Assembly (NCBI GenBank): GCA_021404525.1
Contig: JAAWWE010000001.1
Coordinates: 868,001 to 932,000 of the forward strand
Direction of reading: 5' to 3'
Source of the DNA: Rhodobiaceae bacterium
GTDB taxonomy: Bacteria > Pseudomonadota > Alphaproteobacteria > Parvibaculales > Parvibaculaceae
DNA length: 64,000 bases
Part shown: piece after piece, positions 44,853 to 47,546 of the stretch
How positions within the stretch are numbered: position 1 is the stretch's first letter
How the letters are laid out: each line of letters starts with the position of its first letter
Translations under genes and position numbers: made by a program
Notes under the pieces: generated by a model
What the model saw: the letters and a program-made list of their open reading frames with translations, nothing else
Told to the model about the DNA's origin: nothing
Database searches by the model: none

Positions 44853-44861
44853 GCGCTAGCG
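44847..44861. other. Palindrome holding both stop codons of the converging acylase and TonB-like genes
   Basis: CGCTAG-GCG-CTAGCG is a perfect six-pair dyad. The plus-strand stop TAG (44850-44852) is in one arm and the minus-strand stop (44856-44858) is in the other. No T-run follows on either side, so it is at best a weak terminator. Confidence 0.45.
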
Positions 44862-45767
44862 GATAGAGCCTTCACCTGCCAACCGATAGGACTTGCAGTG
44901 GGGAGAGGAGTTTCGCAGGCACTGCGCGTAATAGAGACGCAGAACAGAGCCATCGAGGTTCATGTCATAACAGTCTTTGGTGCCGTATGAGATGATCTCT
45001 GATTGATGACACCAACGATTGCCCTCAATCCACCAACGGCCACTTCCGCGTTTTGAACGTGTAGACGAATATTCCTGGTGGAATGTTTTGTAGTGGTAAT
45101 AGATCAGCTTCACACGGCTTGTGCCGTCGGCATTGAGCTGGATCTCAACATTGGTAAGACGGTTGCCGCCCTGAATGTCCAGGCGCCCCATTTCAAGAAA
45201 GAGAGTCTGACCTGTCAGGCGCGCACTGATCGCATTGCCAGTCAGTGAATTGCCTGGACGGTTTCGAATGGTTTCTTCCAGGCTTCCGCCACCACCACTA
45301 TTGTCCTGGCCCACAATACCGGTTGATCCGCCAGGCGTTGCCACTTCCTCTTCACCGCGTTGCTGTGTCGTTGACGCCTGTTGCGGCTGCACATCTTCAT
45401 TACGGCGCGTGGGCAATTGATCTGTGACCTGCGGTTTAGGTTCCGGCTTCACCTCGGGCTTGGGTTCAGGCTTCGGTTCTGGCTCAGGCGTCGGTTCAGG
45501 CACTGGATCAATGTCCGCGTCGGCAAAGGTCGGCGTTTGCTGATCCGATCCATCAATTTGTGCGGCTGCGTCATCATTATTGTCGAGGCCGGCTGCAAGC
45601 TGAAAGGTCAGCGCATCGCCGTCACCCGGACCTTCACTTCCAAAAATGCCACCGCCCAGCAGAAAATAGACCAGCACCAGCAGGTGAAGACCAACAGACC
45701 AAAGCAACACCGTCCGCAGGCGGGGCGCTTCAAATCCATTCAACTGGTCTGGCTCCGCAACACTCAT
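44856..45767 (-). CDS. TonB-like transenvelope protein with non-TonB, four-cysteine C-terminal domain
   Basis: 303 residues. A short cytoplasmic start, one membrane helix (residues 18-40, with a TonB-like VGLHLLVLVYF including His28), an acidic stretch, then Pro-Glu/Pro-Lys repeats at residues 88-113 as in TonB spacers. From about residue 172 a compact domain begins (RPGNSLTGNAISA), with GRWWIEGNRWC and Cys253, 266, 283 and 291. It lacks the TonB_C pattern. The G-N-x-L-x-G and G-x-W-x-x-x-G-x-x-x-C layout recalls small alphaproteobacterial periplasmic domains such as DUF995. It follows two ExbDs and overlaps the second by four bases. Confidence 0.8.
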   Translation of the reverse strand: MSVAEPDQLNGFEAPRLRTVLLWSVGLHLLVLVYFLLGGGIFGSEGPGDGDALTFQLAAGLDNNDDAAAQIDGSDQQTPTFADADIDPVPEPTPEPEPKPEPKPEVKPEPKPQVTDQLPTRRNEDVQPQQASTTQQRGEEEVATPGGSTGIVGQDNSGGGGSLEETIRNRPGNSLTGNAISARLTGQTLFLEMGRLDIQGGNRLTNVEIQLNADGTSRVKLIYYHYKTFHQEYSSTRSKRGSGRWWIEGNRWCHQSEIISYGTKDCYDMNLDGSVLRLYYAQCLRNSSPHCKSYRLAGEGSIR

Positions 45768-46168
45768 TCAGATTGCTCCGTCACAAGGTTCACTTCACGC
45801 ACACCGACATTCCGCAATCCTTCCATAAGCTTGATCAGCTCATGGGCCGGCGCATCCTGGTCTGCCTTGATGGAAACATCATAAATGCCTTGCTCATCTA
45901 GGAAGTCACGCAGGGCATATGCCGCCAGATCGGCCCCCATGACACGATCACCGAGATAAACAAATCCATCTGCTTCCACATAGAGCACAAGATCTTCCGA
46001 CGCGCGTTTATCGTCCACCTGACCAGCCGGCAGGTCGACATCCACATCGTCTGTTGGCTGTAGTGTGCCTGCCAACAGAAAGAAGATCAGCAGCAAAAAC
46101 ACCACGTTGATAAGTGGAACAACGGATTCATAAGGACGACGTTGAGGGGGTTCTTCAAACTCGATCAT
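45764..46168 (-). CDS. ExbD/TolR family protein with Asn in place of the membrane aspartate
   Basis: 134 residues. One membrane helix at residues 16-37 reads VVPLINVVFLLLIFFLLAG. In ExbD, TolR and MotB this position is Asp, which carries protons; here codon AAC gives Asn21. The periplasmic domain (LVLYVEADGFVYLGDRVM ... LIKLMEGLRNVGVREVNLVTE) is a normal ExbD fold. It starts one base into the stop of the first ExbD and overlaps the TonB-like gene by four bases. A pair with an Asp-bearing ExbD would give an asymmetric dimer. Confidence 0.9.
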   Translation of the reverse strand: MIEFEEPPQRRPYESVVPLINVVFLLLIFFLLAGTLQPTDDVDVDLPAGQVDDKRASEDLVLYVEADGFVYLGDRVMGADLAAYALRDFLDEQGIYDVSIKADQDAPAHELIKLMEGLRNVGVREVNLVTEQSE

Positions 46169-46572
46169 TATCTCAAGCTCTCCACCCGTGAGGTGCCAAT
46201 GGACTGAGCACCACCATTGCGTGCGGCCTCAATCGCGGAGATCAATGGCTGCACCGCCGAGCCATTCTCTGCCAGAATGGAGACAACCGCTTCGGGGTCG
46301 CCACCCAGATTATTGCGAATACCATCACTCAACGCGTCAAACGCAATTGGCTCACCGTCGAGCCAAAGACTTCCGTCTGTCAGCACCCAGACCTCAACAA
46401 CATGACGGTCGGTCTCAACCTCCTCCGGATCGGGCGCTGGCGTCAGCACGGCGATCGACTGGGTCTGCAAAAACGAGCTTGCCAGCATAAAAAAGATCAG
46501 GAGCAGGAACACCACATCGATAAGCGGCGTCAGGCTCACGATCCTCTTTTTATGGATTGCTTCATCAAACAT
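46168..46572 (-). CDS. ExbD/TolR family protein with the conserved aspartate
   Basis: 134 residues. A basic start (HKKRIVSLTPLIDVVF) leads into the membrane helix, with Asp19 in LIDVVFLLLIFFMLAS, the proton-carrying residue of the family. The periplasmic domain (VEVWVLTDGSLWLDGEPI, then LISAIEAARNGGAQSI) is ExbD-like. It lies 12 bases after exbB and overlaps the second ExbD by one base. Together they should form the rotor-like core in an ExbB pentamer. Confidence 0.92.
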   Translation of the reverse strand: MFDEAIHKKRIVSLTPLIDVVFLLLIFFMLASSFLQTQSIAVLTPAPDPEEVETDRHVVEVWVLTDGSLWLDGEPIAFDALSDGIRNNLGGDPEAVVSILAENGSAVQPLISAIEAARNGGAQSIGTSRVESLR

Positions 46573-46584
46573 GGGCCAACCGCC

Positions 46585-47355
46585 TTAAGCAGATTTAAGA
46601 GCTGCAATCAGTCTTGAGGAAGCGTCGCGCAGTGTCAGCCGCGCCATATCCACTCTGCTTTCGAGCAGGTTGAGTGACGCAATCGCTGGAATGGCCACCG
46701 CGAGACCGACAGCTGTTGTAAGCAGCGCAACCCAGATCCCTCCGGAGAGGATTGCCGGGTCAACCTTGTTTCCTGCGAGCTGTAACTGTTGGAACGCGTT
46801 GATCATCCCGATCACAGTCCCCAGCAAACCGAGCAGCGGCGAAATATTTCCGATCACCTCAAGCCAGCGGAAATAGCTTTGCAAGCCTCCCAGTTCATTG
46901 CCACCAACACGGGCGATCTCTTCTTCCGCATTACCGCCGTTCTGAGCACCTTCCACACCAGCCAATAATGTACGTGCAACCGGCGAGCGCGTTTTGCGAA
47001 GGACCGCAGCAGCGCCATCTCTGTCGCCTGACCTAACTTTATCAATCGCCACATCAATAAACGCACGTCGAGTGAGACCAGCTCGCCAGAACTGGAAAAC
47101 CTTGAGCAAAATGATCGCAAGTGACAGAACCGACAGGCAAAGTAGGATGATTACAATCGGCCCACCTCTATCGATTAGAGGCACCAATTCCCATATGCCT
47201 CCATCGCCGCCTGCCGCCGCAGCTGCATCAAGCGCTGAAAGCGCTTCTGCGCCCTCGCCACTGGCTTCCCCTGCGCCAGCCTCTCCCGTCGCTTCGGCCG
47301 CGGCGTCTCTGCCTGCAGCTGTTTCCTCACTCACTACATTTTCCTCATCGGCCAC
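46585..47355 (-). CDS. exbB: MotA/TolQ/ExbB proton channel family protein
   Basis: 256 residues from the GTG at 47355, which has GGGGGA nine bases upstream; a TTG at 47400 gives 15 more residues. About 60 residues of Ala/Glu/Gly-rich sequence precede the first helix (PIVIILLCLSVLSLAIILL). Helices two and three carry SPLLGLLGTVIGMINAF and GGIWVALLTTAVGLAVAIPA, the ExbB/TolQ channel core. It uses the proton gradient to drive the TonB-like partner. It is the first gene of the four-gene cassette and divergent from a MarR gene. Confidence 0.92.
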   Translation of the reverse strand: MADEENVVSEETAAGRDAAAEATGEAGAGEASGEGAEALSALDAAAAAGGDGGIWELVPLIDRGGPIVIILLCLSVLSLAIILLKVFQFWRAGLTRRAFIDVAIDKVRSGDRDGAAAVLRKTRSPVARTLLAGVEGAQNGGNAEEEIARVGGNELGGLQSYFRWLEVIGNISPLLGLLGTVIGMINAFQQLQLAGNKVDPAILSGGIWVALLTTAVGLAVAIPAIASLNLLESRVDMARLTLRDASSRLIAALKSA

Positions 47356-47392
47356 CGGTATCACTCCCCCAAACAGCCCGATTGCACTCGAG

Positions 47393-47546
47393 CCAAACAA
47401 TTAGTAACATAACTTTACTAGAACATCTGAAAGGCGATTTGGTCAACCCGGATTTCTAGAGCCAAACAAATCAATTTAGTGAGTGCAATCATTTCGACAA
47501 AAGACCAGAATCTCCCTACCAAACAAATCTAGCGCACGGTTAGTGA
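47393..47546. repeat. Three direct repeats in the exbB-marR intergenic region
   Basis: CCAAACAA followed by a TTAGT(G)A element occurs at 47393-47407 (no spacer), 47462-47482 (CCAAACAAATC, TTTAGTGA) and 47519-47546 (CCAAACAAATC, GGTTAGTGA). Distances are about 69 and 57 bases. The repeats fall in the divergent promoter region, a good place for a MarR operator, though MarR sites are usually dyads. Confidence 0.45.

Follow-up and report, generated by a model that had tools for sequence, protein, structure and literature searches.

Does a Ton motor need a proton-carrying aspartate in both of its ExbD subunits? The question is raised by an operon in the window, by which we mean the whole stretch of 64,000 nucleotides analysed here from a Rhodobiaceae bacterium (family Parvibaculaceae), in which two adjacent ExbD genes differ at that residue. 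The operon comprises the following features.

46585..47400, minus strand: proton-channel protein of ExbB type, GGIWxALLTTA subfamily (Pfam MotA_ExbB, 93.5 bits)
46168..46572, minus strand: ExbD1, in which residue 19 is the proton-carrying Asp (Pfam ExbD, 71.7 bits)
46516..46518, minus strand: codon GAT, Asp19 of ExbD1 (from the sequence)
45764..46168, minus strand: ExbD2, in which residue 21 is Asn in place of the essential Asp (Pfam ExbD, 73.6 bits)
46106..46108, minus strand: codon AAC, Asn21 of ExbD2 (from the sequence)
44856..45767, minus strand: TonB-like energy transducer, overlapping ExbD2, with a transmembrane (TM) His motif and a Pro-rich linker

The four minus-strand genes overlap or almost touch. 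The ExbB open reading frame (ORF) comprises 271 aa from a TTG codon, its true start possibly lying farther downstream, and ExbD1 and ExbD2 comprise 134 aa each. An earlier note on this DNA had placed Asp19 in ExbD1 and Asn21 (AAC) in ExbD2, and the sequence confirmed both the coordinates and the codons: the helix region of ExbD1, SLTPLIDVVFLLLIFFML, reads SLTPLIDVVF, and that of ExbD2, SVVPLINVVFLLLIFFLL, reads VVPLINVVF. Both proteins scored far above the curated cut-off of Pfam ExbD/TolR (PF02472, 25.4 bits). The NCBIfam equivalog cut-offs for ExbB, ExbD, TolQ and TolR were reached by none of the window's ExbB, ExbD1 and ExbD2, the tolR score of ExbD2 being 53.5 against a cut-off of 127.3. 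The strictly conserved TM-helix Asp of the ExbD/TolR family is present in ExbD1 and absent from ExbD2; a structural study likewise terms the ExbD Asp strictly conserved (PMC9008036). Judged by its sequence, ExbD2 is an ExbD homologue without the catalytic residue.

The stop codon of ExbD1 and the start codon of ExbD2 overlap by one base (TAATG), as had been described; the equal expression read from this overlap was too strong a claim, since an overlap of this kind points to coupled translation and does not imply that both proteins are made in the same quantity. No TonB-dependent receptor gene was found beside the operon among the ORFs read at 41–51 kb.

Occurrence of the Asp/Asn pair

A search of the family with ExbD2 covered 40 genomes and gave a clear orthologue in 32. 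An Asp-type ExbD preceded the Asn-type ExbD2 in all 32 orthologous operons, with a gene overlap of 1 or 4 bases at each of 30 loci measured, and the Asn codon was AAT at 21 and AAC at nine of 30 loci. A sequencing or assembly error at codon 21 would need only the one-base difference between GAC and AAC, but it is refuted by the Asn of 32 of 32 family genomes, for which both synonymous codons occur at the 30 loci counted, and we give it practically no credence. Contig C16 of the window's genome carries another ExbB-ExbD-ExbD-TonB operon, again with Asp then Asn, and nine further second operons, found in family genomes with an ExbB profile (E up to 1e-42), showed the same order (10/10 including the window genome's own). 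In one metagenome-assembled genome (MAG; L106, 4811-5586), ExbB is split between two frames that overlap, and in the matching genome G005 the ExbB match is shortened as well; the gene may carry a frameshift or assembly error.

An ExbB profile, blind to the residue in ExbD, was searched against 348 genomes sampled evenly across Pseudomonadota. The 33 best ExbB matches among those listed (E up to 8.2e-44, 27 genomes, both operons of the window's genome included) were all read; the cut at E 8.2e-44 was chosen after viewing the list, where a gap separates it from the next entry, a single-ExbD locus at 2.8e-41. ExbD1 had Asp in 33 of these 33 operons, and ExbD2 had Asn in 31 and Asp in two (L039 and L054). 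Below the cut, two more distant ExbBs sitting among other ExbB types also had Asp/Asn pairs (L071, 2.1e-40; L092, 8.2e-31). No reversed (Asn/Asp) or Asn/Asn pair occurred among 159 pair rows, matches with fewer than 90 aligned residues being left out; the 146 Asp/Asn rows represent 137 distinct pairs. Unpaired ExbDs, where read, had Asp only (25/25).

The fixed pattern proposed for the homologues was thus borne out, with Asp always first and Asn nearly always second, and a random placing of Asp and Asn in either copy is excluded by the family operons (32/32) together with the sampled ones (33/33 and 31/33). The earlier note had further suggested an obligate asymmetric pair; the asymmetry stands, and 'obligate' has to be dropped, as two of the 33 operons have Asp in both ExbDs.

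Tandem ExbD genes as a general cause of Asn were ruled out, the tandem loci of other ExbB types being Asp/Asp in ten of ten cases among the matches listed. These ten came from 14 regions, mostly picked off a score-ordered ExbD list that favours high scorers; as to the other four regions, L081 and L083 were Asp/Asn, L079 was L039 again, and L085 had one ExbD.

Species genomes were also scanned with an ExbD2 alignment and the motif [PA][LM]IN[VI]VFL[LM], which gave at least 565 confirmed relatives, the best 80 loci being kept. Judged by record titles, these 80 all belonged to Pseudomonadota (Alpha- and Gammaproteobacteria). An Asp-type ExbD and an ExbB lay directly upstream in 80/80 of these Asn-motif loci (the best 80 of at least 565), the upstream residue of L181 being taken from the profile column (Asp); because Asn is in the search motif, the 80 loci test the partner and not the frequency of Asn. 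Five of 50 plasmid matches were inspected, from Ruegeria, Phaeobacter inhibens (two), Leisingera and Tritonibacter, and all five were Asp/Asn. No ExbD2 relative was found in the phage collection. One contig (L115) carries two Asp/Asn ExbB-ExbD-ExbD operons on opposite strands inside a stretch of 9 kb.

Constraint on ExbD2 and setting of the operons

Asn21 of the window's ExbD2 aligns with Asp25 of E. coli ExbD (PDB 6tyi). A structure model of ExbD2, based on a 30-sequence alignment, reached a mean pLDDT of 83 and a pTM of 0.53, with a predicted TM helix at residues 19–34, and its best PDB matches were the ExbD periplasmic structures 8pek, 8vgc and 8p9r; some of the matching periplasmic domains carry a bound TonB peptide. 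As modelled, ExbD2 keeps one N-terminal TM helix and the ExbD-type periplasmic fold. In the 30 aligned ExbD2s, the Asn column held Asn in 28 and Asp in two, and no other column within the predicted helix held an acidic residue in any sequence; position 14, directly ahead of the helix, was acidic in 26.

The dN/dS ratios were 0.011–0.065 for ExbD2 (9 of 15 comparisons computable) and 0.019–0.071 for ExbD1 (4 of 15), values that are rough because dS is near saturation. On these sequence comparisons, ExbD2 is under purifying selection like ExbD1. The possibility raised earlier that ExbD2 is a silent structural copy finds no sign of decay: besides the selection there is the predicted ExbD fold, and the Asn position is not a drifting mixture. 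That such a copy is being lost would agree with the loss of its catalytic residue, but its retention across Alpha- and Gammaproteobacteria, under purifying selection and with a single replacement residue, makes this very improbable.

An ExbD tree was reconstructed with the Asp/Asn column masked, from 58 Asp/Asn pairs chosen for breadth from the 137, the two exceptions and 45 other ExbDs; it had few columns and 78 open forks. ExbD1 formed a single branch (SH-aLRT 89), and ExbD2 formed one group save for one intruder, the extra ExbD of L178. Both Asp-type ExbD2s nested inside the ExbD2 group; one clusters with Asn types in a four-member group that has good support. This branching points to an old duplication in which Asn was largely kept and Asp rarely came back (or was kept), and since the two Asp/Asp operons of the 33 nest among Asn-type ExbD2s, Asn is not indispensable. 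The ExbD2 of L039, which nests with Asn types and whose nearest rows include two of Rickettsiales MAGs, suggests by its position a return to Asp. The intruder (L178, 4187-4618) precedes the ExbB operon as an additional, third ExbD; it is ExbD2-like in sequence but carries Asp (PLIDVIF), and a gene resembling those of TonB-dependent receptors is close to it on the opposite strand.

Five ExbDs were found in the window's genome, namely two Asp/Asn pairs and one ExbD beside TolB, together with four Plug-domain receptors. The window operon does not form a Tol-Pal (TolQR) cluster with TolB; the genome's one TolB_N match (contig C58) adjoins that single Asp-type ExbD. A further MotA/ExbB match (C58, 344077) was rejected as a Ton motor; it resembles a flagellar MotA and has flagellar-looking neighbours.

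Every non-Tol ExbD found belonged to an Asp/Asn pair in seven of 11 genomes, the window's own and six of ten chosen ones. Plug-domain receptors numbered 1–8 in each of these seven (5, 6, 5, 1, 8 and 6 in G003, G006, G008, G061, G129 and G462, respectively), G006, G008 and G061 being single-contig genomes; the plug domain of the only receptor of G061 lies ~0.8 kb from the ExbB match. Additional ExbDs were present in the other four of the ten (G290, G316, G406 and G457).

The second operon of the window's genome stands after a TonB-dependent receptor (TBDT) gene and HmuS-, HmuT-, HmuU- and HmuV-like genes (named from their translations), and its last gene encodes a TonB with a TonB_C domain. A single-query search of the flanks of the best 80 ExbD2 loci, with full flanks at 50, gave receptors near 24 and HmuV-related ABC ATPases (some weak) near 22 of the 80. 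In three of four annotated plasmid clusters there are receptors together with transport genes of the heme, siderophore or cobalamin type; no receptor or uptake gene was found in the Ruegeria plasmid cluster within the stretch shown. Annotating both proteins as an interchangeable 'biopolymer transporter ExbD', as in the plasmid records, masks a likely functional difference.

Because Asp/Asn pairs are the only non-Tol ExbDs found in seven receptor-encoding genomes, and because of the uptake-cluster context, the Asp/Asn ExbBD motor very probably works. The 'only Ton motor' argument is weakened by the report that TolQR can partly replace ExbBD in E. coli (PMC10907165).

The TonB-like protein of the window combines a TM helix bearing S-x-x-x-H with a proline-rich linker and, C-terminally, a domain in which four Cys are conserved; His28 and these Cys are invariant in all eight aligned sequences (the window and its relatives L106-L113). 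Pfam TonB_C was found neither in this protein nor in three of three close relatives scanned, and no Pfam model matched the four-Cys domain in the TonB-like proteins scanned; TonB_C was found in five of five more distant partners scanned, as in the genome's own second operon. A model of the four-Cys domain was of low confidence (mean pLDDT 54), with a lipocalin-like protein as its best PDB match (E 5.6e-3) and no match below 1e-3. His occurred within residues 13–50 in 72 of 75 downstream proteins (the 80 loci less two without an ORF and less L129, L153 and L166), with the exact S-x-x-x-H spacing in 24 of the 75.

Proposed motor and known systems

On balance, we favour a distinct type of Ton motor in which ExbB would hold an ExbD1–ExbD2 heterodimer with one protonatable site, encoded in the order ExbB, ExbD1 (Asp), ExbD2 (almost fixed Asn) and TonB. 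That the two ExbDs share one dimer, as the earlier note had supposed, is plausible. They would heterodimerise inside the ExbB ring, proton uptake and release would fall to ExbD1 alone, and the Asn of ExbD2 would be a permanently 'protonated' neutral partner; MotB D22N has been used to mimic the protonated state (PMC9389320).

According to a structure paper on the E. coli Ton and Tol systems, two essential Asp take turns in all rotary models, each proton accounting for 36 degrees (PMC12215075), and the two Asp of the homodimer are described as having unlike surroundings, one being protonated at a time (PMC12215075; PMC9022066). With Asn fixed in one subunit, such alternation would be lost, and a 5:2 rotary motor would then use five protons per turn, one for every 72 degrees, instead of ten, one for every 36 degrees; steps of 72 degrees have been named as one outcome if the two inner chains are non-equivalent (PMC9389320). 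One TonB strand spans both ExbD protomers and is bound differently by each (PMC10907165), so a heterodimer could fix the orientation; the ExbD1–ExbD2 pair would be set relative to the single TonB strand bound between the two ExbD periplasmic domains. The fuller proposal, a widespread Pseudomonadota class of Ton motor, ExbB5-ExbD1(Asp)-ExbD2(Asn), with a single site, 72-degree steps, five protons per turn, no alternation and a neutral subunit that fixes polarity, is more tentative, and we consider it a serious possibility that falls somewhat short of probable. E. coli ExbD D25N is reported to be inactive (PMC11658791), as may be expected for a homodimer, yet by analogy this is a warning for any Asn subunit.

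Alternatively, ExbD1 might form a working homodimer by itself, with ExbD2 either in a separate proton-dead assembly or exchanging in as a brake or regulator of the number of active motors. An Asn subunit mixed into an ExbD1 homodimer motor would be a dominant brake, the two sampled operons with Asp in both ExbDs speak for this arrangement, and the tandem ExbD2 of Xanthomonas is reported to be not needed for iron uptake and needed for another function (PMC3551730). All 33 sampled operons hold ExbD1 and ExbD2 together and have an ExbB of their own; this fits a 1:1 partnership better, as do the overlapping genes and the similar constraint of the two ExbDs, and we regard the ExbD1 homodimer as unlikely.

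ExbD2 might also conduct protons by another route, either with Asn21 as a gate or relay or with a second site supplied by another residue of ExbD2 or ExbB. The conservation of Asn rather than other small residues, in 28 of 30 ExbD2s with Asp in the remaining two, and the acidic residue at position 14 (26/30) would suit such a route. Against it, the predicted helix 19–34 has no second acidic column, and the equivalent of E. coli ExbB Glu176, which is reported to be essential with an unclear role (PMC8599685), is Glu in just 61 of 129 distinct ExbBs of Asp/Asn operons (Val in 42); we hold this route to be improbable. The equivalents of the pore threonines Thr148 and Thr181 of E. coli are kept in all 129, and the window's ExbB has both, with Val at the Glu176 position. 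A tie between Asn and the loss of Glu176 was not upheld, since the residue varies outside the Asp/Asn type too (Glu in 6 of 7 other tandem loci and 8 of 23 single-ExbD loci).

In both Alpha- and Gammaproteobacteria evolution has retained one Asp and made the other position neutral, also in the seven genomes in which no other Ton-type ExbBD was found alongside TonB-dependent receptors. Asp/Asn motors offer a natural experiment on the need for two sites, on the number of protons used per turn and on how asymmetry of the dimer directs TonB. No report of an Asn-type ExbD was found in full-text searches of open-licence papers.

Tandem exbD genes are already known in Xanthomonas and Sphingobium sp. 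SYK-6 (PMC3551730, PMC8599685). The Ton operons of Xanthomonas campestris and SYK-6 share tonB, exbB and two consecutive exbD genes with the operon described here; the likeness to X. campestris is one of published gene order (PMC3551730), and SYK-6 differs in keeping Asp25 in both ExbDs (PMC8599685). The Myxococcus gliding motor AglR-AglQ-AglS likewise combines one MotA/ExbB-type protein with two MotB/ExbD-type proteins, but AglQ and AglS reportedly both have the conserved Asp, and the choice between hetero- and homodimer is described as undecided there (PMC9389320).

In the plasmid heme cluster of Phaeobacter inhibens, the ExbD pair is Asp/Asn. A published counterpart is the Roseobacter heme uptake cluster of Ruegeria sp. 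TM1040, described by Hogle and colleagues. Its genes hmuR-exbB-exbD1-exbD1a-tonB and hmuSTUV match the P. inhibens cluster in gene content and in the six-plus-four divergent layout (PMC5225302), a likeness of published layout; the passages describing the cluster term exbD1a a duplicate and leave its residue unmentioned. The single TonB-dependent receptor of TM1040 is required for growth on heme (PMC5225302). In a Phaeobacter plasmid cluster, a small secreted-looking 'hypothetical protein' (L200, 7517-7948) lies between the heme receptor and ExbB; the TM1040 paper mentions a hypothetical gene as well (PMC5225302).

The MotAB flagellar stator belongs to the same 5:2 rotary-motor superfamily, but its MotB is a homodimer with two Asp and without an Asn partner. 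With E. coli ExbBD-TonB, seen by cryo-EM as ExbB5-ExbD2, the present system shares the ExbB and ExbD families, the pore threonines, the TonB TM histidine and the ExbD fold; E. coli has a single ExbD with Asp25 in both protomers, whereas here there are two ExbDs, one of them with Asn.
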